NCBI GenBank assembly: GCA_026988315.1
Contig: JALSLJ010000079.1
Location: 1-43,847 of the forward strand
Reading direction: 5' to 3'
Source: Sulfurimonas sp.
GTDB taxonomy: Bacteria > Campylobacterota > Campylobacteria > Campylobacterales > Sulfurimonadaceae
Length of the DNA stretch: 43,847 bases
The translations under genes were made by a program, and so were the position numbers. The notes under the pieces were generated by a model. The model saw only the letters and a program-made list of their open reading frames with translations. It was not told the DNA's origin and searched no databases. Of this stretch, positions 21,732 through 39,192 are shown piece by piece. Within the stretch, counting starts at the first letter, position 1. The number at the start of each line of letters is the position of its first letter.

Positions 21732-23240
21732 TTAATATCCACTGTTATATACAAATGCTGTAATAAACTCTAAAAGTGGATTTAGCATAACTATAGCAAA
21801 TATAGTTCCTATTGCCGCAAATCCAATAATTGATTTTAGTGGTAATGTAGCATTTGTAACATACACATGTCCATCATTGCCAGTTACTGGCTCTTTCATA
21901 AACATATATACAATCAGTTTCACATAGTAATAACCAGCAATTGCTGAGTTAAGAGCCATGATAAGTGCTAGTATTGTATAGCCACCAGTTACTGCTGAAC
22001 TAATCATATAAAGTTTTCCCCAAAATAGTGCAAATGGAGGAATACCTGCTAAACTTAGCATAAATAAACCCATAATTAACGCTGCTACAGGAGCAGTTTT
22101 AATCATACCTGCGAACTTATCAAAACTGTGGTCTGAGCTTTGGTAATCTGGTAGATGTTTTTGACGAGACATCCAAAGCATACTAAATGCTCCAAGGTTT
22201 GTGAAACTAAAGAGTACCCAATACAAGAAGAGTGCACTGTTAGCTTGTGTTGTAGCAATTAAAATTGCTGCCATTACAAAACCTGCATGAGAGATTGAAC
22301 TGTACGCAAGCATTCTTTTCACATCAGTTTGAACCAATGCCCAAATATTTGCAGCAGTCATAGTAACTACAACAAATACATACAGAACAACTTCAAGCCA
22401 AACAACACCACTGTGGATTAAGAATTCAAAAAGTCTCATAGTAACAACAAAAGCTGCTATTTTTGGAACAATAGACATATATCCAGCCATCGATGCACTT
22501 GCACCCTCATAAACATCTGGTGCCCAAGTATGAAAAGGAACAAGAGATAGTTTAAACGCAAAAGATGCTAGTAAAAATGTAACTGCAACTAAAACATAAC
22601 CTATGTCAGTATAGTTGTTTGCTTGTAGAACTGCCGCTATTTGATTGATTTCAATTGATCCCGTAAGAGCATACAGTACCATTGAACCAAAACTAAAAAA
22701 TCCAGCTGCTAATGCACCCATAGTAAAGTACTTCACTGCTGCTTCAAATGATTTGTCGCGGTTATGCATAGCGATTAAAGTATAGAGCGCTAATGATGCT
22801 GTTTCTAAACCAACAAAGATTAAGATTAAATTATCTGTTGCAACCATGAACTGGAATCCAGCAATCATAAATAAGAATAAAGCGAAAAATTCAGGATAAG
22901 AAAACTCATGAAATCTTTTATGTGTTAAAGCCAATGGTATAAATAGCATTGATGCTCCAACGATAATAAACTGAGAAATAATTGCTAAACCATCAATAAG
23001 CATCATATCGAAAACACCCATAACAGTGCCTGTTTGAGCAAATACACCTGCTGCATCTAGCAGTGTACCAAAATCCATTATCAGAAATAGCATACTAAGA
23101 CCAACATACAATGACTTATCTAATCCACCTTTAATTACATCAATAACAATAATTAAAAGTGCGCCAATGATAGGGATTAACATTGGTGCAAGAGTCATTA
23201 AATTTAATGACTCTAATGAAACATTTATTGGCTCTAACAT
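21732..23240 (-). CDS. nuoN: NADH-quinone oxidoreductase subunit N
   Basis: The 502-residue protein is one of three antiporter-like proton-pumping subunits of complex I, with about 14 membrane helices. Signatures are IFVGLETASLALYTLIAM with the conserved helix-5 glutamate, the KLSLVPFHTWAPDVYEG loop and VPKIAAF. The C-terminal end fits the family. Its start overlaps the last base of nuoM. It is the last nuo gene. Confidence 0.95.
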   Translation of the reverse strand: MLEPINVSLESLNLMTLAPMLIPIIGALLIIVIDVIKGGLDKSLYVGLSMLFLIMDFGTLLDAAGVFAQTGTVMGVFDMMLIDGLAIISQFIIVGASMLFIPLALTHKRFHEFSYPEFFALFLFMIAGFQFMVATDNLILIFVGLETASLALYTLIAMHNRDKSFEAAVKYFTMGALAAGFFSFGSMVLYALTGSIEINQIAAVLQANNYTDIGYVLVAVTFLLASFAFKLSLVPFHTWAPDVYEGASASMAGYMSIVPKIAAFVVTMRLFEFLIHSGVVWLEVVLYVFVVVTMTAANIWALVQTDVKRMLAYSSISHAGFVMAAILIATTQANSALFLYWVLFSFTNLGAFSMLWMSRQKHLPDYQSSDHSFDKFAGMIKTAPVAALIMGLFMLSLAGIPPFALFWGKLYMISSAVTGGYTILALIMALNSAIAGYYYVKLIVYMFMKEPVTGNDGHVYVTNATLPLKSIIGFAAIGTIFAIVMLNPLLEFITAFVYNSGY

Positions 23241-24796
23241 TAGTTTACCTCCTGCATAGAAGCTTGCACTAGATTAGGAATTCTAGTTTTTGCTTCTTCG
23301 GTTATAGATTTATCATGCATTAATTGAACAACATACTCTACACTATTATTGATTGGCTCTAATACCGGCTTAGGATAGATACCTAACCAGATAGTAATTA
23401 TTGTCAATGGAATCAAAGCAACAAGTTCTCTTTTATTTACATCTGGAAGATTTTTGTTCTTCTCATTTGTAACCTCTCCAAAGAAAAGTCTTTTGTATGC
23501 TGCTAGCATATAGATAGCACCAACAATAATCGCTATTCCAGCTAAAAGAGTTAAGATATGAGATTGTTGATAAAAGCCTAGAAGACTTAAAAACTCACCA
23601 ACAAAGTTAATTGTAAGTGGCATGCCAACAGAAGCCATGAGCATCACTCCAAAGATAGTTGCATAAATTGGCATAACGGACGCCAATCCACCAAACTCAC
23701 TCATCATCTTAGTGTGTCGTCTATCATAAATAACACCAACAAGAAGGAATAAAGCACCAGATACAACACCATGTGCAATCATTAAAAAGATACTTCCTGA
23801 GATACCCTCAACATTTAAAGCAAAAGTACCAAGAATAATAACACCCATATGTGAAACAGAAGAGTATGCTACAACTTGTTTGACATCCTCTTGTGCATAA
23901 GCAACCATTGCAGTGTATATAATCATGATAATCGCAATAATTGCAATTGGGAACATGAAATATACCGATGCATCAGGGAACATTGGCAACGAGAAACGGA
24001 TAAAAGCATATGTACCCATTTTAAGTAAAATTGCCGCAAGTATTACAGAACCGATTGTTGGTGCTTGACCATGTGCATACGGCAACCATGTATGGAATGG
24101 AAACATTGGTACCTTAATAGCAAAGCCCATGAAAAATGCTCCAAATAACCATAACTGATATGTTTCAGGTAAAATAAGACGATGCCAATCAAGAATAGCA
24201 AAACTCCAGATACCAACGCCTGTTATAGGATCAATTGTAGCTTGATAGTAAAAATAAGCCATAAAGAGCATACCAACTAACATAACAAGTGAACCAGTAA
24301 AAGTGTATAAGAAGAATTTAACAGAAGCGTATATTCTTTTTTCTCCACCCCATGCACCAATAATATAAAGCATTGGTACAAGAGATAGCTCCCAAAACAC
24401 ATAAAACAAGATAGCATCTAGCGCAACAAATACACCGATCATAGTCATCTGTAAAAACAGGAGTGTTATAATCATATTTTTAACTTTTTTAGTATCAGTA
24501 AGCGAAGCGATACCAATCAAAGTAAAAAATGATGCTAAGATAACTATAAACAGTGAGATACCATCCACACCAACAATATAGTTAATACCAAAGGCTGGCA
24601 GCAATGGAAGATTTTCCATAAACTGCATACCAGCTACATTTGAATCAAAAATAAACCACAACCACAAAGATAGTGCTAATTCGATAGCTGATACTGTCAC
24701 ACCATATGCCCGTATGCTATCTTTATGAATCATAAATCCAAACACTGCTGCCAATGCTGGAAAGAAAATTAAAGTCGATAAAATATAATCAAACAT
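23240..24796 (-). CDS. nuoM: NADH-quinone oxidoreductase subunit M
   Basis: The 518-residue antiporter-like proton-pumping subunit of complex I has about 14 membrane helices. The helix-5 glutamate is in FYVFWELSLVPMLYIIGAWG, and the family pattern FPFHTWLPYAHGQAPT is followed by an LKMGTYAFIRFSLP helix with its lysine. The ORF starts one base after nuoL ends and overlaps nuoN by one base, so the three antiporter subunits are translationally coupled. Confidence 0.96.
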   Translation of the reverse strand: MFDYILSTLIFFPALAAVFGFMIHKDSIRAYGVTVSAIELALSLWLWFIFDSNVAGMQFMENLPLLPAFGINYIVGVDGISLFIVILASFFTLIGIASLTDTKKVKNMIITLLFLQMTMIGVFVALDAILFYVFWELSLVPMLYIIGAWGGEKRIYASVKFFLYTFTGSLVMLVGMLFMAYFYYQATIDPITGVGIWSFAILDWHRLILPETYQLWLFGAFFMGFAIKVPMFPFHTWLPYAHGQAPTIGSVILAAILLKMGTYAFIRFSLPMFPDASVYFMFPIAIIAIIMIIYTAMVAYAQEDVKQVVAYSSVSHMGVIILGTFALNVEGISGSIFLMIAHGVVSGALFLLVGVIYDRRHTKMMSEFGGLASVMPIYATIFGVMLMASVGMPLTINFVGEFLSLLGFYQQSHILTLLAGIAIIVGAIYMLAAYKRLFFGEVTNEKNKNLPDVNKRELVALIPLTIITIWLGIYPKPVLEPINNSVEYVVQLMHDKSITEEAKTRIPNLVQASMQEVN

Positions 24797-26722
24797 CTAT
24801 TGCACTCCTAAAGTAGATAAGAAAAATTCAATTTCACTAGAAAATTTAACTGCTAAGCCAAAAACTACTGCTAAAGATAACAAACCAACAGCACCTGCAA
24901 CCATCCATTTAAGCATGGTTGATAAGTTACCGTTTTGCATATCTCTTGTGTTCTCACCTGTATTATAGATAGCTTTTGCTATCCCATCCACCGTTGCATC
25001 TACAATTTTCATATCAACTTCTTTCCAGAATGCTAATGATAATTCTCTATATGGTTTTACAAGGTAGTTTTCATAAAACTGTGGAATATAGTATTGGTTT
25101 TTAAGAAGTTTATACCCAAAGCTATTTTCCATAGCAGAAGTTCCATCTGGAACTTTAACCTCACTCAGTGCATATTTTTTATATGCAAAAGCGATAGCTC
25201 CTATAACAAACAACTGTGTACCAATAGTCATTATCCAGTAAACAACAGCACTATGAACATGATATTGAGTTGCTGGTAATACGATAGTTACCATATCAAA
25301 ATATGTACCTTTCAATGAACCAGCAATTATTGCCAATAGAAGTAATGGAGTCATAGCAACTAACATAAATTTATACGCTTCATGGGGATCAATACCAAAT
25401 AGTTTATATCTCTCTTCACCATGAAATATTAAAGCAACCAATCTAAATGAATAAAAAGCTGTTAAACCAGCAGTAAATAATAGTACCGTATAGATTATAT
25501 AGTGATTCTGAATAAATCCAACTTCTAAGATTAAATCTTTAGAGAAGAAACCTGCTAATGGGAAGATACCAGCTAAGGCTACAGAAGCAATGGTCATCAT
25601 AATAAATGTACCCTTCATAACCTTAGAGAGACCACCCATTTTAAACGGATCTAACTCATCATTCATCGCATGCATAACATTACCAGCTCCTAAGAATAAC
25701 AGAGCTTTAAAAAATGCATGTGCCATAAGGTGAAAGAGTGCAACCCAATAAGCTCCAAGACCAGCTGCAACAAACATATACCCTAACTGTGAAAGTGTAG
25801 AGTACGCAATAATTCTCTTCATATCACGATTCACAAGTGCCATCGAAGCAGCAAATAGTGCTACAAATGCACCAAGACTTGCTATAAACAATCCAACATG
25901 TGGAATTAAATCATAGAGTGGGTTAGCACGAACTATAAGATATACACCTGCTGTTACCATAGTCGCAGCATGAATCAATGCAGAAACTGGGGTAGGACCT
26001 TCCATCGCATCAGCCAGCCAAGTATGGAGTGGGAACTGAGCTGATTTACCCATAGCACCGATAAATAAGAAGATACCCATCCAAGTTAAAATATCAGTCT
26101 CTAAAGATGGCATTGCTGCAAAAGCTTCAACATACTGAAGTGTTCCTGTGTTCCAATACACTAAGAAGATACCTATAAGCATCCCAAGGTCAGCAATACG
26201 ATTCATAATAAAAGCTTCATTAGCAGCCCAAGTAGCAACCTCTTTATGATACCAAAAACCGATCAGACCCCATGAACACAGACCAACACCTTCCCAACCG
26301 ATAAAAAGACCAGCGAAGTTATCACTCATTACAAGAATCATCATTGAGAAAACAAATGCTGACAACCATGCAAAGAAACGGTTAAATGCTTTGTCATGAC
26401 TCATATAACCAATAGCATATACATGAACAACTGTTGAAACTAGTGTAACAACCATCATCATAGTTACAGAGACTTGATCAACCATAAAACCAAACGGTAT
26501 GTAAAGATCACCTGTAGCCATCCATGTCATCATCTCTACATGTATGCTACCACCAGTTTTTAATACATACGCTAATAAAATACTACTAGCTAAAAACGAT
26601 ATGAACAATAAAGCCGATGGAACTATACCAGCAATCAGTGTCTTTGGTGATGCACTAAAAAGTGCAGCAAACATAGACCCAACTAGTGGTGCAAATAATG
26701 CTATATATAAAAACATTTCCAT
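24797..26722 (-). CDS. nuoL: NADH-quinone oxidoreductase subunit L
   Basis: The 641-residue distal proton-pumping subunit of complex I has about 14 antiporter-fold helices, then the long lateral helix and a closing membrane helix near residues 605-630. Signatures are LFIGWEGVGLCSWGLIG with the helix-5 glutamate, FPLHTWLADAMEGPTPVSAL, and RDMKRIIAYSTLSQLGYMF. The length is normal. It follows nuoK by 4 bases. Confidence 0.96.
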   Translation of the reverse strand: MEMFLYIALFAPLVGSMFAALFSASPKTLIAGIVPSALLFISFLASSILLAYVLKTGGSIHVEMMTWMATGDLYIPFGFMVDQVSVTMMMVVTLVSTVVHVYAIGYMSHDKAFNRFFAWLSAFVFSMMILVMSDNFAGLFIGWEGVGLCSWGLIGFWYHKEVATWAANEAFIMNRIADLGMLIGIFLVYWNTGTLQYVEAFAAMPSLETDILTWMGIFLFIGAMGKSAQFPLHTWLADAMEGPTPVSALIHAATMVTAGVYLIVRANPLYDLIPHVGLFIASLGAFVALFAASMALVNRDMKRIIAYSTLSQLGYMFVAAGLGAYWVALFHLMAHAFFKALLFLGAGNVMHAMNDELDPFKMGGLSKVMKGTFIMMTIASVALAGIFPLAGFFSKDLILEVGFIQNHYIIYTVLLFTAGLTAFYSFRLVALIFHGEERYKLFGIDPHEAYKFMLVAMTPLLLLAIIAGSLKGTYFDMVTIVLPATQYHVHSAVVYWIMTIGTQLFVIGAIAFAYKKYALSEVKVPDGTSAMENSFGYKLLKNQYYIPQFYENYLVKPYRELSLAFWKEVDMKIVDATVDGIAKAIYNTGENTRDMQNGNLSTMLKWMVAGAVGLLSLAVVFGLAVKFSSEIEFFLSTLGVQ

Positions 26723-26726
26723 ATTA

Positions 26727-27035
26727 CTATCCTCTCATCGTTGACATATTATCTAGGTCAATATTGCCATGGCGTTTATGCCATACAATTAATAAACCAA
26801 GCCCTACAGCTACTTCTGATGCAGCGATTGCAATTACAAAAAATGCAAACATTTGCCCAGTTAAGTCACCATAATAATGTGAAATCGCAGCAAAAGCAAT
26901 ATTAACCGAGTTGAGTAATATCTCTGTTGCGAAAAACAATAAAAGAAGGTTCTTACGACGCATAACACCAACTAATCCTATAGCAAATAAAATAGTTGAT
27001 AAAACAAGGTAATGATTAAGTCCTATTTCCATCAT
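26727..27035 (-). CDS. nuoK: NADH-quinone oxidoreductase subunit K
   Basis: The 102-residue subunit has three membrane helices and sits in the E-channel region of complex I. The two conserved glutamates appear in LLFFATEILLNSVN (helix 2) and AASEVAVGLGLLIV (helix 3). The start overlaps nuoJ by 4 bases. Confidence 0.95.
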   Translation of the reverse strand: MMEIGLNHYLVLSTILFAIGLVGVMRRKNLLLLFFATEILLNSVNIAFAAISHYYGDLTGQMFAFFVIAIAASEVAVGLGLLIVWHKRHGNIDLDNMSTMRG

Positions 27036-27607
27036 GAAAGTACCTTTTTATTTTTTTCTTTTTTTACGTCTTTAATCTCAGCATCACTCATAAGAGTAAG
27101 AGATAAATCCATTTTCTTTCCTGCTAAAACAATTCCAGAAATCATTGCAACTAGTAACATAACCGCAGCAACCTCAAAAGGAATCAAATACTTAGTAAAT
27201 AGAACCATACCAACATCTTGCGTATTTCCAACACCCTCAGTCATAGGATAGAAAGCTACTATATTATCTGCTACCATAGGTGTTGCAAAAATAACAACCA
27301 CCAATATGGCTGCTAATGTACCTAAGCCAACTATAATCATCTTGTTGCCCTTCTTCTCTTTTACATCTCTTGTAGTATCAAAGAACATCATACCAAATGC
27401 GTAAAGAGCCATCACAGCACCTGAGTAAACAACGATTTGAATCGCACCTAAAAAGTCAGCACCTAAAATAAAGAAAAACGCTGAAATAAAAATCATCCCT
27501 GCTGCTAATGCCGTTAAAGCATATAACGCTTGTGATGTTGTAACTGCAATGAAAAACATTGCAATTGTTAAAAATGAAAACAGATAAAATGCTACCGCTT
27601 CAAACAT
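27032..27607 (-). CDS. nuoJ: NADH-quinone oxidoreductase subunit J
   Basis: The 191-residue protein has five hydrophobic helices. The third carries the QIVVYSGAVMALYAFGMMFF stretch, the conserved pi-bulge region whose rotation is linked to proton pumping. The C-terminal 25 residues are highly charged and lysine-rich. It lies 11 bases after nuoI. Confidence 0.94.
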   Translation of the reverse strand: MFEAVAFYLFSFLTIAMFFIAVTTSQALYALTALAAGMIFISAFFFILGADFLGAIQIVVYSGAVMALYAFGMMFFDTTRDVKEKKGNKMIIVGLGTLAAILVVVIFATPMVADNIVAFYPMTEGVGNTQDVGMVLFTKYLIPFEVAAVMLLVAMISGIVLAGKKMDLSLTLMSDAEIKDVKKEKNKKVLS

Positions 27608-27618
27608 AACCTAACTCC

Positions 27619-28236
27619 TTAATATGCTAGAGGTGTTTTTTTAACACGCTCATCTTCATGTGGTGTGATAGCACCAAAACCTTCAAACTCAAGCTGTGTT
27701 CCAGCTTTCATCTTGTCAAGTGGTGTTAACATATCTTCATATATTAAAAAGTGCTCTCTTTGATCACTAGCATTTTCGTACTCACCGCCGTGTGTAATTG
27801 CAAGCTCAGGACAAACTTCAGCACAGTATCCACAAAAGATACATCTACCAAGATTTATACTGTATTCGCTTACCTCTTTACGAGAATTTTCATCTATCTT
27901 TGTATCAATTCGGATACAGTTAGAGATACAAATTTTCTCACAAAGTCCACATCCGATACATCTCTCAGCATCTGATTCCCAAAGCCTCTTCATCTCATGC
28001 ACTGCACGATAACGAGGACCTATTGGCATCTTCTCTTGAGGATAGCTCACCGTGTGGATGTCAAATCTAATCATCTCACGCAGAACTACCCAAAGACCAA
28101 CAAAAAGTTCGCCTCTAAAAGTTCTCTTCACTACTCTTTTAAATTTTCCCCAACCATCAGTAGGATAATCTTCAATATCTACTAAATAGTAACCATTTTC
28201 ACTAACATCTCTGTTATTAAACTGTTCATTATTCAT
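27619..28236 (-). CDS. nuoI: NADH-quinone oxidoreductase subunit I (two [4Fe-4S] clusters)
   Basis: The 205-residue ferredoxin-like subunit passes electrons from NuoG to NuoB. The two ligand sets are CIGCGLCEKICISNC and CIFCGYCAEVCP, binding clusters N6a and N6b. Before them is the LRGELFVGLWVVLREM-type amphipathic helix that lies on the membrane and the YPQEKMPIGPRYRAVHE loop. All eight cysteines are present. The C-terminal tail is longer than in many relatives. Confidence 0.95.
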   Translation of the reverse strand: MNNEQFNNRDVSENGYYLVDIEDYPTDGWGKFKRVVKRTFRGELFVGLWVVLREMIRFDIHTVSYPQEKMPIGPRYRAVHEMKRLWESDAERCIGCGLCEKICISNCIRIDTKIDENSRKEVSEYSINLGRCIFCGYCAEVCPELAITHGGEYENASDQREHFLIYEDMLTPLDKMKAGTQLEFEGFGAITPHEDERVKKTPLAY

Positions 28237-28246
28237 TCATATCCCC

Positions 28247-29242
28247 TTAAAACATCATCACAAAGCCAGCGATTATAATATTAATCACAGCTATCGGCAT
28301 AAGTACTTTCCAACATAACCACATCAATTGATCTGGTCTTACATCTGGCCAAGCAGCTCTAGTCCATAAGAAAAAGAAAAAGAAAAATGCAACTTTTCCA
28401 AGTAATGCCATAGCACCTAGGAAACTTCCATCACCATAACCACCTAAGAAAAGTAAAGGGATAACAAAAGACAGAAAGAACATATTTGCATACTCACCTA
28501 TAAAGAATAGCCCCCATCTCATACCAGAATACTCAGTACCAAATCCGTCAATAATCTCATGATCATTAGCAATCAGGTGGAATGGTGTACGGCCAGTTTC
28601 AGCAAATGCAGCAATCCAAAATAAAATGAATGCCACAAATCCAACTCCATACATATTAAATATAATCCAGCCATTTTCAATTTGGTAATTATTAAAATCA
28701 ATAAGGGATAGTGAACCAACCATCATTATTGGAGCTAAAATCGACAAACCAGTAATTACCTCATAAGAGATAAATACAGCAGCACCACGAGCAGCAGAAA
28801 GTAATGAGAACTTATTTGCTGAAGCCATACCACCTAGAAGTGGACCATAAAGACCAACACCCATGATTCCAAGTATATATAAGATACCAACATTTATATC
28901 TGCTACAATTGGATGTACTTCATATCCAAACAGTGTAAATGATGGTAAAAATGGAATTGCTGCTGCTGCCATAAATGCTGTTGCAGCAGTAATTACAGGT
29001 GCAATCTTAAAGATAGGTCCAACAACATTTGTGGGGATAATATCCTCTTTTGTAAAAAGTTTAACACCATCCGCGGCAACTTGTAACAACCCATAAGGTC
29101 CAACATTCATCGGTCCTAAACGGCGTTGCATAAATGCAAGCACCTTTCTCTCAAAGTAAGTACCAATACCTGCTAATGCAGAAAAGACAAGTAAAACTAC
29201 AACGACCTTTATAATCGTTTCAATTAAATATGCTGAATCCAT
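28247..29242 (-). CDS. nuoH: NADH-quinone oxidoreductase subunit H
   Basis: The 331-residue membrane subunit forms most of the quinone-binding chamber, together with NuoB and NuoD. It has eight or nine membrane helices, the first cytoplasmic loop ERKVLAFMQRRLGPMNVGPY, and acidic loop residues around FAETGRTPFHL and EYSGMRWGLFFIGEY. It lies 3 bases after nuoG2 and 10 bases before nuoI. Confidence 0.96.
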   Translation of the reverse strand: MDSAYLIETIIKVVVVLLVFSALAGIGTYFERKVLAFMQRRLGPMNVGPYGLLQVAADGVKLFTKEDIIPTNVVGPIFKIAPVITAATAFMAAAAIPFLPSFTLFGYEVHPIVADINVGILYILGIMGVGLYGPLLGGMASANKFSLLSAARGAAVFISYEVITGLSILAPIMMVGSLSLIDFNNYQIENGWIIFNMYGVGFVAFILFWIAAFAETGRTPFHLIANDHEIIDGFGTEYSGMRWGLFFIGEYANMFFLSFVIPLLFLGGYGDGSFLGAMALLGKVAFFFFFFLWTRAAWPDVRPDQLMWLCWKVLMPIAVINIIIAGFVMMF

Positions 29243-29245
29243 ATA

Positions 29246-31729
29246 TTACACCTTTTGTATCGAAGCTGTTGCAAAGCGATAAGCGCTAAACAAAGCCTCT
29301 GAGTTTATTTTAGAATCAAATGTTGGTAGATATGCTATATCACCAGCGATTTTATTATCACTAATAATATTCACAACCAACTCACCATTATCAGTTTTGA
29401 TAGTAACACTATCCCCCTCATTTAGGTCAGATTTACTTAAATACTCTTCACTCATATAGATACCACCATCTTGATTGATGTTAGTATTATTAGTAAATGG
29501 AGTAAATTGTTTCACTGGGTTTGCTAAATAGATAAGTGTTCCTTCTAATCTAGCGTCACTAAACTTCTCTACATTTTCATCATCACTAACACTTACCGGC
29601 ATGTTCTCTAATACATAGCCTCTCACCTCTGTTCCATCATTTTCATAATGGTTTGGTAAATCATCAAAATTTTGAGATTTAAAACCAGCACTTAGCGGTA
29701 ATAATGGCGTATAATCAATCACATTTTCTGCACTTAAACCAAGTACATTCGCAATATCATTCAATTCATACCCTTTATATTCTAAAGCAGCATTAGTTGG
29801 GTTAACACGCTTGTTTATTGATGTCAATGTTCCCTCTTGCTGATTCATTGCAGGCATATCAATATCACCATCACCTAAAGCTGATAAAGTAAAGTCTGCT
29901 TTAGTATTATATCCGATTGTATATGAGCCTTTGCTGTCATCTAAATCACAAATAAGAGCTACCCCAAGTGAGTTTGTCAAAGGTGGAATCATAGTGATTT
30001 CAAACTTACTATATTTCTCTATTAATGCAACTAAACGGGCTAAATTTTTAGAGTTTGGATGGGTGTATAAATCTGGGCCAACAACAAGTGCAAATCTATC
30101 CTTTTTCTTTAAGTTTTTCTCTAATGTCTCTTCAAAATTTGCAGGTGCATTGAGAATCTCTAAAAGTGCGTTATCATCAACTTCTATCTCTTTAGATACT
30201 TTTTTAGGAACCATTTTAGATTTCTCGACTTCAATCTCTTCCTCTTCGCCTGTTTCTTCATTCACTTTCATCTCTTTAACAATTTCAACAATTTTTTCTT
30301 TTATTGTTTCTGTTACTGTTACTGTTTTTAGAGAGTGAAAAGATGCTAAGTATTCAACTACTTCAGTTGGTAACTTAGACTTATCAGCAAATAGATCTAA
30401 AACTAAGTAAAGAGCCGCCTCTTCTTGAAGTGGAGCATGCTCTATCGTCATACTTCCCTTAGCTAAACCTTCTATAATCGGATCTTTTACTGGATGAAAA
30501 TAGATACCAGCACCTTTATTAACAGTCATTGAATTATTAAGTGCGTATCTAGCATTTGGATTATCTGTTTTTAAAGCACTACCAACAGAAATAACAAAGT
30601 TTGAATTATGAACCGCTTTTAAATCACTACCATAAAGAGAAGTGCCACTAATTTCACTATAATCTTTTAAGAAAGTTTGAAAAGATTTCGCTTCATTATT
30701 TACAAGCTTGTAACCATGTTTTTCTTTTAAAGTTTGAAGGATATATGCTTCTTCATTTGTAATAGTTGAAGTGAACTCTATTGTATCAGCTTTTTTGAAA
30801 GCTTCTATAGCCTTTGAAAAAGCTTCTTCATCTTTACCCTCTACTCTATTTTCATAGTTATAAGCATATCTACCAGCGCCACAAAGTGAAACATAGTTCC
30901 ATTCATTCATCACACGGTAAATTTTATCTTCTGGGTTCTCAATACTTGTATGTTTAACATCATAAGATATTTGACACCCAGCAGAACAGTGTCCACAAGT
31001 TGCAGGAATCTGCTTCAGTTCCCAAGCGTTAGACTTATACATAAAGTCGGTATCAACTAATGCACCAACTGGACAAACAGCAGCACACTCACCACATGAT
31101 GTACAATCAAGCATCTCTTCACCACTTGTTAAACCGATAAGAGATTTGTTCAGTTTATTCCACATGCTATAAGCATCTTTTGGCATACTTGCTTTATAAT
31201 CTGCATCCAATGCATCTGCACCACGGGCAACAGTTTTAAGGGAGTTGTCACCAATCATATCTTTACATGCTGTAACACACCTCTCACATACTATACATAA
31301 ACCTGGATCATAGTGTAAATGACCCCAATCTATTGCTTCACGAGCAACATCTTTAACAGCATAGCTTTGAGAATCCACACCTATCTCTAAAGTATAGTTT
31401 TGCAGTTCACATTCACCAGATTGATCACATACACCACATTGAAGTGGATGATTTACATCATATACTTCCATAATTGCGCGTTTTTCAACTTCAATTGTTT
31501 GGGTAGATGTTGTAATATTCATCCCATCTTTAGATTTTGCATTACAAGCATATACCTGTTTTCCATCTGCTTCAACTAAACAGATACGACAAGCTAATGT
31601 TGGGCTACATCTTGTTAAATAACAAATTGCTGGAATAAAAATATCATTTGCACGGGCAGCATTTAAAATAAACTCACCCTCTTGCGTCTGAACCTCTTTC
31701 CCATCAATATTTATAGTAATATTACTCAT
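29246..31729 (-). CDS. nuoG: NuoG, second copy (cluster-rich, with charged insertion)
   Basis: This 827-residue protein is the larger of two tandem NuoG proteins. Ligands for one [2Fe-2S] cluster are C37, C47, C50 and C62; the His-Cys3 cluster site is H94-C98-C101-C107. CIVCERCVTAC (145-155) and CTSCGECAAVC (209-219) each give a full CxxCxxCxxxC set. An N7-like set, CGHCSAGC (245-252) plus a later CGAG, leads into a molybdopterin-oxidoreductase fold with no visible cofactor motif. A lysine/glutamate-rich insertion at about 470-516 (KEKIVEIVKEMK to KKVSKEIEVDD) is absent from the other copy. The start overlaps nuoG1 by 8 bases. It could be a structural subunit or a second electron wire. Confidence 0.9.
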   Translation of the reverse strand: MSNITINIDGKEVQTQEGEFILNAARANDIFIPAICYLTRCSPTLACRICLVEADGKQVYACNAKSKDGMNITTSTQTIEVEKRAIMEVYDVNHPLQCGVCDQSGECELQNYTLEIGVDSQSYAVKDVAREAIDWGHLHYDPGLCIVCERCVTACKDMIGDNSLKTVARGADALDADYKASMPKDAYSMWNKLNKSLIGLTSGEEMLDCTSCGECAAVCPVGALVDTDFMYKSNAWELKQIPATCGHCSAGCQISYDVKHTSIENPEDKIYRVMNEWNYVSLCGAGRYAYNYENRVEGKDEEAFSKAIEAFKKADTIEFTSTITNEEAYILQTLKEKHGYKLVNNEAKSFQTFLKDYSEISGTSLYGSDLKAVHNSNFVISVGSALKTDNPNARYALNNSMTVNKGAGIYFHPVKDPIIEGLAKGSMTIEHAPLQEEAALYLVLDLFADKSKLPTEVVEYLASFHSLKTVTVTETIKEKIVEIVKEMKVNEETGEEEEIEVEKSKMVPKKVSKEIEVDDNALLEILNAPANFEETLEKNLKKKDRFALVVGPDLYTHPNSKNLARLVALIEKYSKFEITMIPPLTNSLGVALICDLDDSKGSYTIGYNTKADFTLSALGDGDIDMPAMNQQEGTLTSINKRVNPTNAALEYKGYELNDIANVLGLSAENVIDYTPLLPLSAGFKSQNFDDLPNHYENDGTEVRGYVLENMPVSVSDDENVEKFSDARLEGTLIYLANPVKQFTPFTNNTNINQDGGIYMSEEYLSKSDLNEGDSVTIKTDNGELVVNIISDNKIAGDIAYLPTFDSKINSEALFSAYRFATASIQKV

Positions 31730-33962
31730 TTATTACTCTCACTATTTTGGATTTTTCAAACCTATACTTACTTGCATCTACAACACTGTCAAATGTAGGA
31801 TTTAACGCAATTGTACCCTTTAAGTCAGTTTCTAGTTTGAAATTTCTGATTACAGTTTCACCATCAAAACTAATCTCTACAGTATCACCGTCAGAGATTC
31901 TAGCAGCAGCAGCAAACTGTGCAGAACCTCTTAATGTTCTATCTTTTTCTAATTGCTTAGAGTTATTTGTATATGTGTTAAACTGTAAAACTGGATTTGA
32001 ATGATAAATCACAGTTCCATTAAATTCTGGTAAATCATCAAGCTCTTCAATTGTGCCATCTGCTTCACATACAACCTCATCAAGTAGATATCCTCTTTCA
32101 TCCTCGCCATATGGTGTTAAGAAATTTTCTAGGTTATCAAACTCAATATTTTTAAAGCCTCTATTTGGATTTAATTCTTTTGTATAATCGATAGTGTTTT
32201 CACTACTAATTCCACAAGCAACAGCCAAATCATTTAAAGTATAGCCATCAAATGAAAGAGCAACATTTGTTGGTAATACTCTATTATCTATATTTACAAA
32301 AGTTCCCTCTTGAGAATTGAGAGCTGGTACCGAAAGGTTAGCATATTCAAAACAAGAGATAGCAAAGTTACCTTTTGCATTGTAACCTACAACATCAATA
32401 ATATCTTCATCTTTATCTAAAGTATTTATCAGTGAAACTCCAATAGTATTTACTTCACTTGGAACCACAACTAAAGAAAAATCACTATACTTTTCTATAA
32501 GTGCTGCAAGTTTCGCAATATTTACAGCGCGTTCATGTGCCATTAAATCATTACCAAGAATAAGAACACGATTCTTAGCTCTTTTAAATGATTGCATCAT
32601 ATCGCGCAACTCTTCATCACCAATATTGCTCTCAGCATAAAGATAGCCTAGATCCAAATCATCAAAGAACGATCGTTCATCTTCTGATAAATCAGCATCT
32701 TGTAAGATGGCATCCGCTAAAACAGCGATAACGCCCTCTTCCGTTCCAACTTCATATTTCATAAACTGTGTTACAATATTTTGGACTAGAGTATCTTCCA
32801 TCGGATGCGCATATACTATTTTTGCCCCATTGTGTTTAGAAGCAGTTGTGAGTGCATACCTTACTGCTGGGTTATCAGTAGCAATTCTACTCCCTATTAT
32901 AATAGCTGCATCAGTTTGCTTAATAGCATCTAAAGAACCACTATGGTGTAGTTTACCACTAACAGAACTATATGCAGTCATAAACTCTTGAAATTTTCTT
33001 GCGTCCTCGTTAAATAATTTCAATCCAAGTTTCTCTCTTAAAAGCTCTAAAATATGTGCTTCTTCATTTGTAATCATTGATGAAAAACGGATAGCTTTTG
33101 CAGATTTAATCGCTTCTACTGCTTTATTAAATGCCGCTTCATCTTTCTCTGCTTGATTATTAAAATCAAAACCAAAGCGACCTGCACCACAAAGGTTAAC
33201 AAACTCATAGTTATTCTTTACTCTATAAATAGAATCAGCACCATTAATTCCTGAGTGTCTTGTTTCATACTCCAGTGAACATCCAGCAGAACAATGTGTA
33301 CAAGTAGCAGGCACACGAGAAAGTTCCCATGCATTAGCACTATATTTAAAGTCAGAGCTTACAAGTGCTCCTACTGGACACACTGCTATACATTCACCAC
33401 AAAAAGTACAATCAAGCGTATCATTATTTTTAGGAATAATAGTTGAACTATATCCACCAAACTTAACCTCGATAGCATCATCACCAATCACTTCATTACA
33501 TACATGAACACATTTTTCACATAAAATACATAAAGATGGGTCATAATTGATGAGTCCCCAATCTTCTATTTTACGAGACTGATCACGAGCTGAAAAGTTT
33601 TGCTGGGAGACGCCAAACTCTAGTGTTTTATTTTGTAAATCACACTCACCAGATTTATCGCATACGCCACACTCTAAAGGATGGTTAACATCATATAACT
33701 TCATAATATTAACACGCTCATTTTCTAAAGCACTTGTATTTGTTGTTATTTCAATACCCTCTGTTGGAGGAGTATTACAGCTGAGTATAAAACCTTCAAC
33801 TCCCTCCGCCTCAACAACACACATACGACACGATGCACATGGAGTTGTTTTTGAGATATAACACATGGTAGGAATATAGATGTCATTTTTGCGAGCTACT
33901 GTTAAAATAGTTTCACCTTTTTGAGCTTCTACAGAGATACCGTCAATTGTAAAATTAATCAT
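31722..33962 (-). CDS. nuoG: NuoG, first copy
   Basis: This 746-residue protein has the full NuoG cluster set: C34, C45, C48 and C62 for the [2Fe-2S] cluster; H94, C98, C101 and C107 for the His-coordinated [4Fe-4S]; CILCEKCVHVC (145-155) and CTFCGECIAVC (185-195) for two more; and CTHCSAGC (221-228) with a later CGAG for an N7-like cluster. The remainder is a degenerate molybdopterin-enzyme fold. It carries electrons from the input flavoprotein towards NuoI. Residues 90-230 are closely like those of the next gene, while the C-terminal parts diverge. It begins 12 bases after the NuoF-like gene. Confidence 0.92.
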   Translation of the reverse strand: MINFTIDGISVEAQKGETILTVARKNDIYIPTMCYISKTTPCASCRMCVVEAEGVEGFILSCNTPPTEGIEITTNTSALENERVNIMKLYDVNHPLECGVCDKSGECDLQNKTLEFGVSQQNFSARDQSRKIEDWGLINYDPSLCILCEKCVHVCNEVIGDDAIEVKFGGYSSTIIPKNNDTLDCTFCGECIAVCPVGALVSSDFKYSANAWELSRVPATCTHCSAGCSLEYETRHSGINGADSIYRVKNNYEFVNLCGAGRFGFDFNNQAEKDEAAFNKAVEAIKSAKAIRFSSMITNEEAHILELLREKLGLKLFNEDARKFQEFMTAYSSVSGKLHHSGSLDAIKQTDAAIIIGSRIATDNPAVRYALTTASKHNGAKIVYAHPMEDTLVQNIVTQFMKYEVGTEEGVIAVLADAILQDADLSEDERSFFDDLDLGYLYAESNIGDEELRDMMQSFKRAKNRVLILGNDLMAHERAVNIAKLAALIEKYSDFSLVVVPSEVNTIGVSLINTLDKDEDIIDVVGYNAKGNFAISCFEYANLSVPALNSQEGTFVNIDNRVLPTNVALSFDGYTLNDLAVACGISSENTIDYTKELNPNRGFKNIEFDNLENFLTPYGEDERGYLLDEVVCEADGTIEELDDLPEFNGTVIYHSNPVLQFNTYTNNSKQLEKDRTLRGSAQFAAAARISDGDTVEISFDGETVIRNFKLETDLKGTIALNPTFDSVVDASKYRFEKSKIVRVINE

Positions 33963-33974
33963 TTATCCCCCTTC

Positions 33975-36008
33975 TCATGTTGCTACCATAGCGATATAGT
34001 AACAACGCATACAGCGATCAGCTTCACTCATCGCCTCTTCTTGTGTAAAACCTAAGTTGACTTCTTCATTGTTATATTTTCGAGTATCCACATCTAATAC
34101 AGTTGAGTGCTGACGAGGTAAACCAGGCAACCACCCTGTTACTTTCTCTTTCTTGTCATAAACTTTTAGTTTACGAAGGTGATCTTCCATTATCTCATCA
34201 TCACTCAAAGTTATTTCACCTGTATGAATATACCTACTCATAACTGAAGCTGCTCTTTTTGCTTGACCAACAGCATTAACAATGGTCATTGGACCATATT
34301 CACAATCACCAGAAGCAAAAATACCCTTGCGAGATGTCATATAGTCTTTGCCATTTGTTTTAATAGTAGCCCAAGATGTCATATCTAGTTCCCACTCTTC
34401 AGGTAAAAAAGCCAAATCAGCGGACTGAGAAACAGCAGGAATTAAATAATCAAACTCTATAGTTTCAGAAGCGCCCTCTATCTTGACAAGTTGAGCACGA
34501 CCACCATCTGGATCTGGAACTAATTCAAACTTATCAATCACTAAAGCCTTCAAAACATCATCTTCATCAATAATCTCATTTACAGCTGAGTGAAAAATAA
34601 ACTCTACGCCCTCTTCAACAGCTTCGTGATACTCTTCATATGTTGTATTGCGAATTATAGTTTTTTCATCACGACGATACAACATAACTACCCTCTTAGC
34701 TCCTGCTCTAATCGCACAACGAACAACATCCATAGATGTAAATCCACCACCAACACAAGCAAGAGTTTTACCAGTTAAATCTACAAAATCCGCATCTATA
34801 GCATACTCTTGTTTTTGTGCTTGTGTTAAAGGGATATCAAACTTTTCATATAAATTTACGCGATCAAGAAAATCAATAGCTCCCCAATAACCAGTAATCT
34901 CTGGTCTCTCGTTTGCACAACGAACAGCCTTTGAGATACGAGTACCAGAAGCGATCATTGTTGCATCATATGATTTTTCAAACTCTCTCATCTCATCAGC
35001 AGAAACTTTATGGTTTACAATAAAGTTAACACCCATATCTCTAACACATTCAATATCTTGAAGATATTTATCCCATGGCATTCGGTATTCAGGAACACCA
35101 ACGGTCACCTCACCGCCAAGAACTGGGAGCTCCTCATAAACATCAACTTCAACTCCATCAGCTGCTAAATAATAAGCTGTTGTAAGGCCCGCAGGACCTG
35201 CACCGATTACTGCGACTTTCTTGCCATTAGCTGGTTTCTTTTTCATTGGATGAAAAAAATCATACCCATGATCAGTTTCCCAATCAGCACCTAAACGCTT
35301 CAGTGACATTATAGATATAGGTTCATCAATATTTGTACGACGGCAAGCATCTTCACATGGATGTGGGCAGACACGACCACACACATGAGCAAGTGGCATA
35401 GTTTGGCGTGTAGCTTCAAGAGAATCATCAAATCTTAAATCTCTAACACCCTCTATATATCCAGGGATATCAACATGGGCTGGACAAGCATCCGCACAAG
35501 GAGATGTTATCTTAGCGATATACCCAACAGTGTCATTATAATGTCTCGATGGCTTTTGCTCATCAATACACGCCATAAATTCAGCTTCAAAGTGTGTCAT
35601 CAAATCAAGTATAGGATTTGGAACTGTTTTACCAATCTCACACTTTGAAGTAATTTGCATACTTTTACCAATCTCTTTTAAGTGATCCAAATCAGCTATA
35701 TTTCCTTCACCACGAGCAATCTTATCTAATTGGTCATATAAAATCCGACCACCCCAACGACCAGGTGCACATCTTCCACATGCCTCAGAATACTCTTGAT
35801 ACTGTGCAGCATATTCCATCGCCAAACGGATTACATCTACATCGGCATCAAATAATGCGACACCATCCCAACCTATAAAGGCTTTAGAATCACGATGATC
35901 ATCATACTGTGCTGGTAAGTTATAAGCTGATTCTTCCCACTCATCTTCTGGCTTATTAATATTGTTAATTAATTCACCATTCCAAGTAGAAAAATAGACT
36001 TTACTCAA
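33975..36008 (-). CDS. NuoF replacement: N3-like domain fused to GltD-like FAD/NAD(P) oxidoreductase
   Basis: The 677-residue protein occupies the NuoF position. Residues about 55-150 resemble the C-terminal N3-cluster domain of NuoF (EYSEACGRCAPGRWGG, then SKCEIGKTVPNP), but the third cysteine of the CxxCxxC pattern is Gly at 83; ligand candidates are C77, C80 and C123. Residues about 165-245 are the GltD-type cluster domain (C171, C175, C210, C214, C218, C222). From 263 follow two Rossmann units: GAGPAG (269-274) for FAD, and GGGFTSMD (420-427) with VVMLYRRDE for NAD(P). A CMRC motif lies near the end. The NuoF FMN/NADH domain is missing. It probably feeds electrons from NAD(P)H to the NuoG pair; the real donor is unknown. 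Confidence 0.85.
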   Translation of the reverse strand: MSKVYFSTWNGELINNINKPEDEWEESAYNLPAQYDDHRDSKAFIGWDGVALFDADVDVIRLAMEYAAQYQEYSEACGRCAPGRWGGRILYDQLDKIARGEGNIADLDHLKEIGKSMQITSKCEIGKTVPNPILDLMTHFEAEFMACIDEQKPSRHYNDTVGYIAKITSPCADACPAHVDIPGYIEGVRDLRFDDSLEATRQTMPLAHVCGRVCPHPCEDACRRTNIDEPISIMSLKRLGADWETDHGYDFFHPMKKKPANGKKVAVIGAGPAGLTTAYYLAADGVEVDVYEELPVLGGEVTVGVPEYRMPWDKYLQDIECVRDMGVNFIVNHKVSADEMREFEKSYDATMIASGTRISKAVRCANERPEITGYWGAIDFLDRVNLYEKFDIPLTQAQKQEYAIDADFVDLTGKTLACVGGGFTSMDVVRCAIRAGAKRVVMLYRRDEKTIIRNTTYEEYHEAVEEGVEFIFHSAVNEIIDEDDVLKALVIDKFELVPDPDGGRAQLVKIEGASETIEFDYLIPAVSQSADLAFLPEEWELDMTSWATIKTNGKDYMTSRKGIFASGDCEYGPMTIVNAVGQAKRAASVMSRYIHTGEITLSDDEIMEDHLRKLKVYDKKEKVTGWLPGLPRQHSTVLDVDTRKYNNEEVNLGFTQEEAMSEADRCMRCYYIAMVAT

Positions 36009-36021
36009 ATTACAATCCTAT

Positions 36022-36243
36022 CTATTTTTTTGCTACGATAGTCCAATCGACTTCGTTAAACTTTAAAGAGTTCATCAACTCATAACCACTTTTCTTTACC
36101 AAATCAGCAGATCTTTGAACTGATGTAAAATCACCAATTTCAAATAAAAAGATTGCCACTTCACCCGCACTGTGCGTTCCAAGAATTTCTTTCATTCTAG
36201 GTTCAAACTCTGTTTTTAAATGTCTTAAATCATATCTTTTCAT
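36022..36243 (-). CDS. NuoE replacement, small subunit of epsilonproteobacterial complex I
   Basis: The 73-residue protein lies in the slot normally held by nuoE, between nuoD and the NuoF-like gene. It has no cysteines at all, so it cannot bind the NuoE [2Fe-2S] cluster. The start MKRYDLRHLKTEF and the GEVAIFLFEIGDF strand recall the small proteins (Cj1575c in C. jejuni, HP1264 in H. pylori) that stand in for NuoE. A structural or adaptor role to the input module is likely. Confidence 0.8.
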   Translation of the reverse strand: MKRYDLRHLKTEFEPRMKEILGTHSAGEVAIFLFEIGDFTSVQRSADLVKKSGYELMNSLKFNEVDWTIVAKK

Positions 36244-36251
36244 ATAAATCC

Positions 36252-37493
36252 TTATCTATCAACTTCGCCGAATACTATATTGGTTGTACCAATAATCGCA
36301 ACAACATCCGGGATATAATGACCTGGTAAAAGGTCAGTTAAAATTCCTGTATGCCAAAAAGATGGAGCACGAACCTTCAATCTATATGGATATGGTCCAC
36401 CCTGAGAGTTGATAAAATAACCAAGCTCACCTTTTGGTGATTCAGTTGCTATATACACCTCTCCAACAGGAGGTCTCATCCCTTGAGTTACTAGCACAAA
36501 GTGTTGCATAAGAGAGTAGTTTTGCGTCATGATATCAAGCTTTGGAGCTGATACATATTTGGGAGCGTGAGCCATTAGCTCAGTTTGCCCTTTTTGAACA
36601 CACTCATCATACATATCTATTGTTTGATAAAGAATCTTAGCACTCTCTCTCATCTCTTCCATATAGATACGGTAACGAGCAAAGTTATCACCTTTATCAG
36701 ACCAAGGGACATTAAATTCAACTTCATCATATAGCTCGTATGGCTCCTCTTTACGGATATCCCAAGCTACTCCAGATGCACGCAGCATTGGACCTGTACA
36801 ACCCCATGACAGTGCCATCTCAGTAGATATTACACCTACCTCTTCCATTCTCATTAACCAGATACGGTTAGTGTCAAGAAGATCTTCATAATCTTTAATA
36901 TTTTGAGGTAACTTATCTAAAAAATCTTTTAGTTGAGCAATAAATGTATCTTGAATATCTAAAGGAACACCACCGATACGGATAGCTGAATGAGTAAGTC
37001 TAGCTCCACAATAGCCCTCGATAATATCCATAAGATACTCTCTCTCACGAAATGCATAAAGGAATACAGTCATAGCACCAATATCTAGTGCAGTTGTCGC
37101 TAACCAAAAAAGGTGAGACATTAAACGGTTTATCTCTAAAAGCATCATTCTAATAACTTGTGCACGACGAGGAACTTCTAAACCTACAAGCTTCTCAACC
37201 GCAAGTGCAAAGCCATAGTTGTTTGAAGATGAAGCGATATAATCCATACGGTCAGTTGTAGGCATAAATTCATTATATATCATATTCTCAGCCATCTTCT
37301 CCATACCACGATGTAAGTATCCAACATCTGGATGTGCTTTTACTATTTGCTCTTGTTGCAAGTGAAGCATCAAACGCAATTGTCCGTGAGCGGATGGATG
37401 CTGAGGACCGAAGTTTAGGATAAGCTCATTATCTTCTCTATCAAAAGTTATATTTTCAAAAAATGGTGATAATCTATTTTTTACCTGTGCCAT
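36252..37493 (-). CDS. nuoD: NADH-quinone oxidoreductase subunit D
   Basis: This 413-residue hydrogenase-like subunit forms the quinone site with NuoB. It has [16 protein letters not shown] near the N-terminus with the quinone-binding histidine, [13 protein letters not shown], the [19 protein letters not shown] stretch, and the C-terminal [27 protein letters not shown] end split around the conserved aspartates. The nickel ligand cysteines of hydrogenases are absent, as normal for NuoD. It lies 8 bases before the NuoE stand-in. Confidence 0.97.
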
Positions 37494-37505: not shown

Positions 37506-38312
37506 TTATCTTTGTGGATCATCAACGATGACCGAATTTTCTCTATCTATTTTCTTAATCAAGAATACACCCTCTTCTTCTTGGTAACTTTGAACTATTT
37601 TTGGCTCATCGCCAGTAATTTCAGTTCCTTTAGGTACTTCATGCCCTAAACGAGCAAATCTCTCTGAATCATAACGATCAACTCTAGCAGTGTCACGGAT
37701 TTCAGGACCAATTGCCTCTCTTGCTTCTTTACCGTAAATCTTATCTACTTCATACCAAGCAGCAAACTCGTCACCCTCTAGTGGATAAGTTTTAAGAAGT
37801 GGATACCCTTGCCAATCATAAGGCATAAGGATTCTTTTCATAAACGGATGTCCATTTGCTTCGATCCCGAACATATCGAACATCTCTCGTTCTGACCAAT
37901 CTGCAGAACGGAAAAGCTTCTCTACAGAATCAACAGCTTGCCCTTTATTGATGAAAAATTTAATGCGAATTCTCTTGCGTTTATTCATACTTAACATCTG
38001 ATAAAATATCTCGAAAGTATTATCTTTAGCTAACCAGTCAATAGCACTAAGCTCTGAGAGTTGTGTATATTCTAATTCATCTCTCATAAGCTCTAAAACG
38101 CCATAAATATCACCTGCATTGATATAAACTACCATCTGCTCAACTTGAATAAAAGCTTCTTTTACTTCAAACTTTGCTTTAATTGCTTCTAAATCTGCAG
38201 CAAATACTGCATCACTCTCTACATCTTGCTTTGGAACCTGAGGTGCCACATAATATCTATCTGTGTAGTAAGCTTTTGCTTGAACATCATCTTTAGGTGT
38301 ATAAGCTCTCAT
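37506..38312 (-). CDS. nuoC: NADH-quinone oxidoreductase subunit C
   Basis: The 268-residue protein is the 30-kDa-type subunit that packs on NuoD. The family signature is in the middle: [18 protein letters not shown], then [19 protein letters not shown]. An N-terminal extension of about 45 residues and a C-terminal tail after the signature make it longer than the core. It overlaps nuoB by one base (TAATG) and is separate from nuoD, unlike the E. coli nuoCD fusion. Confidence 0.95.
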
Positions 38313-38821
38313 TACATTAACCTTTTTGCTTTTTGTGCTTTAGACGCATGGTTAGCACGAATTTTCTTTTGTAGCAACATAACTCCATACTGAAGTGTCT
38401 CAGGACGAGGAGCACAACCTGGAAGGTATAGATCTACAGGGATAACACGATCAACACCTTGAACCGTTGCATAAGTGTTAAACATTCCACCAGTATTTGC
38501 ACATGAACCCATTGAGATAACCCATCTAGGTTCAGTCATCTGGTCGTGAAGTCTTTTGATAAATTCAGCGTGTTTTTTCGTAAGCGTTCCCGCTACAATC
38601 ATCACATCTGCTTGACGAGGTGAAGCTCTAAAAATCGTACCAAAACGGTCGAAATCAAACCTTGATGCCCCTGAAGCCATCATCTCAATACCACAACAAG
38701 CCAAACCATAAGTAAGTGCCCAAAGTGAATTTGAACGACCCCAGTTTACAATCTTGTCAATACTAGTAAGTGCTACTGGTAAACCACCATCTTGCGTATA
38801 ATTTATCTTATGTTGTGCCAT
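38312..38821 (-). CDS. nuoB: NADH-quinone oxidoreductase subunit B
   Basis: The 169-residue protein holds the terminal [4Fe-4S] cluster N2 next to the quinone. The ligands are in LACCGIEMM (adjacent cysteines), [10 protein letters not shown] and PGCAPRPE. The start at 38821 is fixed by AAGGAG about eight bases upstream, inside the end of nuoA, giving a 19-base overlap. Confidence 0.97.
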
Positions 38822-39192
38822 TCAAGCGCTCCTTTTTTCCATGCATATATAAAACCAATTGTCAATAGTAAAATAAACATTAACATCTCAGCGAAACCAA
38901 ACCAACCTAATAGTTTAAAATCAACCGCCCATGGAAACATAAATACGATCTCTACATCAAACAATAAGAAAAGAAGTGCAAACAGGTAAAACTGTGGTGA
39001 TACTCTATTTGGTTGTTTTGTTATCTCTGGTCCACATTCGTAAACAGATAATTTAATTTTTTCAGCATCCTTAGCAGCTAGTGCGCGACTCGCTAGTCGG
39101 GCGATAACCGTTGTTGCAGCGAATGCTCCAAATGTTATAACAAAAAGTACAAATACCCCAAAATACGGATTTGCAGTTGCGATGTGCTCCAT
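38803..39192 (-). CDS. nuoA: NADH-quinone oxidoreductase subunit A
   Basis: The 129-residue membrane subunit of complex I has three hydrophobic helices (about 12-34, 67-91 and 97-119). Family signatures are YECGPEI in the loop, then [22 protein letters not shown]. It is the first gene of the nuo run, with AAAGGTAGG upstream of the ATG. Confidence 0.96.

Follow-up and report, generated by a model that had tools for sequence, protein, structure and literature searches.

A complex I is expected to contain a single NuoG, and an operon that encodes two different ones raises the question of what the second is for. Such an operon lies in the window considered here, the whole 43,847 nucleotide stretch of a Sulfurimonas sp. 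genome that was analysed. The first-pass annotation had noted two different NuoG proteins whose genes overlap by eight bases, both with complete Fe-S ligands including an N7-like set, and had suggested that they form either a longer electron wire or two alternative input modules. The ORF coordinates and the overlap are as it described, and every ligand set could be located, together with an additional [4Fe-4S] site. It was right about the pair itself, and it left aside the subunit Y encoded upstream, the fact that a large part of the Campylobacterota shares the tandem and the relationship of one of the two proteins to a shorter one found in other operons.

The nuo operon runs continuously along the minus strand from position 39192 to position 21732, in the order A-B-C-D-X-Y-G1-G2-H-I-J-K-L-M-N. 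It includes the core of a respiratory complex I (NDH-1), with NuoA (38803..39192), NuoB (38312..38821), NuoC (37506..38312) and NuoD (36252..37493; 572 bits against TIGR01962) upstream of the tandem, and NuoH (28247..29242), NuoI (27619..28236), NuoJ (27032..27607; PF00499), NuoK (26727..27035; PF00420), NuoL (24797..26722; PF00361/PF00662), NuoM (23240..24796) and NuoN (21732..23240) downstream of it, the last two being assigned from PF00361 and their position in the operon. There is a single NuoI and a single NuoB. NuoE and NuoF are absent from the operon, X and Y being found in their place, and neither the NADH/FMN domain of NuoF (PF01512) nor a flavodoxin (PF00258, Flavodoxin_1) was detected in the whole genome. 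With both of these missing and only one full-length complex I NuoD encoded in the genome, electrons have to come to this complex I from some other donor, for which Y is equipped. An ATP-citrate lyase is also present.

Two further 49-kDa-like proteins (PF00346) of around 370 aa (G000:C35:41676-42386 and G000:C86:23699-24412) point to a pair of membrane complexes resembling group 4 type hydrogenases at other places in the genome. Upstream of nuoA is a gene for the bifunctional ornithine lipid synthase OlsF (39484-41196); many relatives have an ORF of around 577 aa in this position, which may be the same gene. Directly downstream of nuoN, a protein with DUF7494 and TPR repeats is encoded (19338-21695).

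The genes for NuoG1 (31722..33962, minus strand; 746 aa) and NuoG2 (29246..31729, minus strand; 827 aa) have the eight bases ATGAGTAA in common. Both proteins exceed the curated cut-off of 591 bits for NF006305, the Campylobacterota NuoG model, with scores of 917.9 bits for NuoG1 and 1174.6 bits for NuoG2, the latter being matched over its full length. Aligned by BLASTP, they are 46% identical in the first 430 columns and 38% identical in the last 295; hence they are paralogous over their full length, and neither is a recent copy of the other. The whole genome has exactly two N5 domains (PF10588), one in each of them, in departure from the single NuoG of a respiratory complex I. In the tree, NuoG2 is the orthologue of the one NuoG of Campylobacter and Helicobacter, and NuoG1 is a second NuoG paralogue within the Campylobacterota. 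The tandem arrangement is not a matter of chance, as in the 42 tandem operons where both genes are readable they either overlap (31 operons) or lie no more than 8 bp apart (11 operons).

Each of the two proteins has five sets of candidate Fe-S ligands. In NuoG1 these correspond to N1b (C34, C45, C48, C62), N5 (H94, C98, C101, C107), N4 (C145, C148, C151, C195), an extra cubane (C155, C185, C188, C191) and an N7-like site (C221, C224, C228, C258); in NuoG2, to N1b (C36, C47, C50, C62), N5 (H94, C98, C101, C107), N4 (C145, C148, C151, C219), the extra cubane (C155, C209, C212, C215) and the N7-like site (C245, C248, C252, C283). Hence there is room for five clusters in each, one more than the four of the E. 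coli and Thermus NuoG. The four extra cysteines turn the ferredoxin domain into an eight-cysteine, two-cubane domain of the type known from FeFe hydrogenases. An AlphaFold model of NuoG1, with a pLDDT of 80 overall and blocks of 36-70 in much of the Fe-S half, was most similar to formate dehydrogenase alpha and complex I NuoG among PDB structures.

When NuoG1 proteins from operons that also encode Y were aligned with NuoG2 proteins, the N1b, N5 and N4 ligands were found in 44 of 44 and 69 of 69 sequences respectively. The predicted N1b-N4-N5 through-path is thus invariant in both paralogues, and the side sites vary: the extra cubane ligands are present in 36 of 44 NuoG1 and 69 of 69 NuoG2 sequences, and the N7-like ligands in 43 of 44 and 42 of 69. 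With the former lost from eight NuoG1 and the latter from 27 NuoG2 sequences, neither can be universally needed. The N7-like losses from NuoG2 fall in most of the operons without Y and in some of the tandem ones, and the extra cubane, foreign to the classical NuoG, is kept by every NuoG2.

At the donor end, Y (33975..36008, minus strand; 677 aa) combines the N3 domain of NuoF (PF10589) with Fer4_20 and Pyr_redox_2 domains, as defined by Pfam and NCBIfam, and its GltD-type part matches StnC, NfnI and GltD in the PDB. It is a chimera of a NuoF N3 domain and a GltD/NfnB-like protein, and probably acts as an NAD(P)H-oxidising FAD subunit in place of NuoF. The eight Fer4_20-type cysteines (C171, C175, C210, C214, C218, C222, C666, C669) are present in 46 of 46 sequences, and the FAD and NAD(P)H motifs (GxGPxGL, GGGFTSMD and YRR) are invariant in 15 aligned sequences, the combination that characterises GltD/NfnB-like proteins. 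However, the N3 motif reads CGRCxPG rather than CGxCxPC, the third cysteine (residue 83), present in E. coli NuoF, being a glycine in 46 of 46 sequences, such that Y does not contain the four-cysteine CxxCxxC...C pattern of N3. Hence a normal N3 cluster may not form, and a wire passing through Y could break at this point unless another ligand is recruited; this three-cysteine site is the weakest link of the wire proposed below. X (36022..36243, minus strand; 73 aa) occupies the NuoE position and is homologous to H. pylori HP1264 (PDB 2lxr, E 3e-20), a protein known to bind FMN (PMC6269979).

The distribution of these genes was studied in 298 Campylobacterota genomes, 81 of which encode Y, and 72 related nuo loci were read. 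Two operon types were recognised. The full type, X-Y-G1-G2, is represented by 46 loci including the present one, in families f1, f2 (part), f4, f6, f7 (part), f8, f9, f11, f12 and f13; the truncated type, consisting of X, a short protein and G2, by 27 loci in families f3 and f10, parts of f2 and f7, and one instance in f4. The X-Y-G1-G2 arrangement between nuoD and nuoH is kept across at least ten family-level groups. A genome scan with an alignment of Y returned 590 relatives, the best 80 of which are all from Campylobacterota; the matches listed include Sulfurimonas, Sulfuricurvum, Sulfurovum, Nitratiruptor, Nitratifractor, Hydrogenimonas and one Helicobacter sp. Wherever Y occurs in the operons read, it does so alongside a NuoG1 bearing the Fe-S domain, and where Y is absent, a protein of 215-340 aa occupies the NuoG1 position. 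NuoG2 is present in every operon complete enough to tell, four loci (L043, L055, L102 and L103) being cut by contig ends or rearranged, such that not every locus shows every gene.

One truncated-type locus (L054) has an X that is 98.6% identical to HP1264 over 74 residues, and hence comes from H. pylori or a very close relative. A number of irregular loci were also encountered. In one genome (G218) the nuo operon is split, with Y-G1 followed by unrelated genes (L103) and G2-J on another contig (L043). Three loci of one genus (f2 g42; L098, L099 and L100) have long inserts, giving a Y of 732-962 aa, a NuoG1 of 813-1046 aa and a NuoG2 of 933-1012 aa. NuoG2 appears to be interrupted at two loci (L044 and L097), by an internal TAA in one f9 genome and, in an f2 genome, by a split into ORFs of 309 and 537 aa; these may be true breaks or assembly errors.

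The short protein at the NuoG1 position has no dedicated Pfam family. A profile built from the NuoG1 proteins of full-type operons matched all 26 short proteins (E 1e-67 to 7e-13), in each case with a higher score than that of the NuoG2 profile. The matches are confined to the same two blocks, at approximately NuoG1 residues 340/380-505 and 636-750; in the protein encoded by the window, the first is at residues 343-510 (32433..32936, minus strand) and is matched by 26 of 26, and the second at residues 636-743 (31734..32057, minus strand). The entire Fe-S half, residues 1-270 (33153..33962, minus strand), is missing from the short proteins. NF006305, the NCBIfam NuoG model, also matched seven of the eight that were tested, with a best E value of 6.6e-27. 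One of them was modelled (pLDDT 85.5); its fold is that of the molybdopterin oxidoreductases, and the model can be aligned to E. coli NuoG with a Z score of 16.6 over 244 residues. They also have in common with NuoG1 an acidic motif, LDxGYxxAExxxxxEE (residues 436-451; 32610..32657, minus strand), that is absent from NuoG2, and D437, G439, E444 and E451 within it are kept in 26 of 26. Hence the short protein is a cluster-free remnant of NuoG1 in which two C-terminal blocks are retained, and it is the 'NuoF/NuoY' protein (Cj1574c/HP1265) known from Campylobacter and Helicobacter, whose complex I is flavodoxin-linked. The protein at this position has been named NuoY in a review (PMC6682613), and in C. 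jejuni, Cj1574c reportedly mediates the passage of electrons from flavodoxin to complex I (PMC4178425). In blue-native data from the same species, one complex is listed with NuoG, NuoD and NuoC, and the remnant is not named.

A tree of NuoG N-terminal sequences, only weakly rooted owing to the great distance of E. coli NuoG, places NuoG1 and NuoG2 on opposite sides of a branch marked 100*, each spanning all of the families; hence the duplication predates the split of the families. Together with the 46% and 38% identity of the two blocks, this branch excludes recent identical duplicates, which would have undone the first-pass interpretation. On a tree of nine operon subunits, the distribution of the full and truncated types needs eight changes, at least seven of which are forced by starred branches. 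The remnants nest with the NuoG1 of their own family, f7 with f7 and f2 with f2, and the remnant of one locus (L104) groups with the NuoG1 of a locus from the same genus (L089) at 97*. The simplest reading is that a resident NuoG1 was truncated repeatedly; that one and the same Y-G1 pair was instead acquired in parallel is much less likely. By gene content, Y and the Fe-S half of NuoG1 have been lost together in several lineages of related bacteria, such as Helicobacter.

Two correlates of Y were considered. ATP-citrate lyase (PF16114) occurs with Y in 63 of the 298 genomes, 18 having Y only, 13 the lyase only and 204 neither; given the phylogeny, under which 1-2 of 7 independent contrasts are informative, a link between Y and autotrophy is unsupported. 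Flavodoxin is encoded by 45 of the 81 genomes with Y and accompanies 24 of the 27 truncated-type loci. Hence there is no clean exchange of one donor for the other, and the replacement of Y by flavodoxin is a trend without independent power.

We lean, if only slightly, towards the existence of one complex I with two different NuoG subunits, in which a detachable NAD(P)H module, made up of Y and NuoG1, feeds NuoG2. NuoG2 would be the core NuoG, from which NuoI and NuoB receive their electrons, as they do in the enzyme of Campylobacter and Helicobacter. NAD(P)H, with NADPH as a candidate donor, would reduce the FAD of Y, from which electrons would travel through its two Fer4_20 cubanes and the three-cysteine N3-like site to NuoG1, and then in series through NuoG2, NuoI and NuoB to quinone. 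The path would be reversible, and in a lithoautotroph the proton gradient might drive electrons the other way along the same wire, to yield NAD(P)H. Several lineages have dropped Y and the Fe-S half of NuoG1, and what they keep of NuoG1, its C-terminal domains, would be a cluster-free subunit with a structural or docking role in a flavodoxin-fed complex I. Because the C-terminal domains of NuoG1 persist beside NuoG2 without any cluster, we infer that NuoG1 is assembled with NuoG2 in one particle, and the joint presence and joint loss of Y and the Fe-S half lead us to regard it as the wire for Y. The longer electron wire of the first-pass annotation is consistent with, rather than proved by, the invariant N1b-N4-N5 paths and the restriction of the Fe-S half to operons with Y.

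Alternatively, Y and NuoG1 might constitute a separate soluble NADPH oxidoreductase, similar to StnC or Geobacter SfrAB, that is merely cotranscribed with complex I. The two proteins do make up the domain set of StnC (GltD and NuoG), divided over two genes, and it is StnC-type and Nfn proteins in the PDB that the GltD part of Y resembles best. However, in ten families or more these genes are part of the nuo operon, where they lie between nuoD and nuoH and overlap that for NuoG2; the truncated NuoG1 stays in the operon even when it has neither Y nor clusters of its own; the C. jejuni remnant acts in complex I (PMC4178425); and the N3 domain borne by Y is an interface of the complex I type. We consider this explanation rather unlikely.

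The suggestion of two alternative input modules sharing one membrane arm, with either NuoG1 or NuoG2 in any one complex, is improbable. Each has a complete N1b-N4-N5 path, which would be enough to serve NuoI alone, but the operon has only one NuoI and one NuoB to be served, and none of the operons complete enough to tell dispenses with NuoG2. Moreover, repeated truncations have left cluster-free NuoG1 remnants beside it, implying that the C-terminal domains of NuoG1 act together with NuoG2, not instead of it.

We give as little credence to a scheme in which the FMN of X and the FAD of Y bifurcate or confurcate electrons among NAD(P)H, ferredoxin and quinone. Y is closest to NfnB- and StnC-type subunits and retains, in an EYRMP motif, the arginine corresponding to Arg239 of StnC, and the X homologue HP1264 binds FMN (PMC6269979); however, StnC has the same arginine and has nevertheless lost bifurcation (PMC10482914), and the genome has no FMN bifurcating module of the HydBC type (PF01512). 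Finally, it is very improbable that the role of NuoG1 is chiefly structural in every species, with its clusters as decorative leftovers, since even though cluster-free remnants seem to function in Campylobacter, Helicobacter and others, the N1b, N5 and N4 ligands are invariant wherever Y is present and absent wherever it is not, which points to purifying selection tied to Y.

Should the proposed assembly of Y, NuoG1 and NuoG2 be correct, complex I could accommodate another complete NuoG together with a dedicated NAD(P)H module; the rule of a single NuoG in each complex would have to be revised, and the electron input of chemolithoautotrophic Campylobacterota would become directly testable. A more far-reaching version, which we put forward tentatively and think less likely to be true than not, is that the two NuoG proteins in series give the enzyme two ports, for NAD(P)H at Y and for ferredoxin at X/NuoG2, with the proton gradient used to reduce the two carriers for CO2 fixation; Campylobacter and Helicobacter would then owe their flavodoxin-fed complex I to loss, several times over, of the NAD(P)H port, the cluster-free stump of NuoG1 being kept. 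The hitherto unexplained 'NuoF/NuoY' (Cj1574c, HP1265) gains an origin, from sequence and trees, as a NuoG that has lost its clusters. No description of two complete NuoG proteins in a complex I operon, of the N3-GltD chimera or of the NuoG origin of Cj1574c/HP1265 was found in the literature searched, although two nuoG genes may be mentioned, at the level of annotation, in subscription genome papers outside that search.

Two of the systems with which this one can be compared, the NuoXY flavodoxin-type complex I and the StnC GltD-NuoG fusion, are already known. The former, in which NuoXY (Cj1575c/Cj1574c, HP1264/HP1265) replaces NuoEF in Campylobacterota, has the same operon order, the same X family and an orthologous NuoG2, and likewise has no NuoEF. 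Here, however, Y is added and a five-cluster NuoG1 stands at the position of the short, Fe-S-free NuoY, in a genome with no PF00258 flavodoxin to act as donor. The canonical complex I of E. coli and Thermus thermophilus shares the membrane subunits, NuoB, C, D and I, and a NuoG with N1b, N4, N5 and N7, but differs in that the present operon has two NuoG proteins, each with an extra cubane, and a GltD-type FAD subunit in the absence of NuoE and the FMN domain of NuoF. The Stn transhydrogenase StnABC of Sporomusa and Nso likewise combine a GltD-type NADPH domain with a NuoG-like protein. In these the two are fused in one chain, as in StnC (PMC10482914, PMC7483475), and accompanied by HydBC-like bifurcating partners, whereas Y and NuoG1 are separate chains encoded in a complex I operon, with N3 on Y, and HydBC-like StnAB are missing, there being no PF01512. 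The Nfn-type proteins NfnB, GltD and SfrB have the FAD and NAD(P)H fold with Fer4_20 clusters that is found in Y, to which Y has added an N3 domain and an RCxxC ligand pair at its C terminus.
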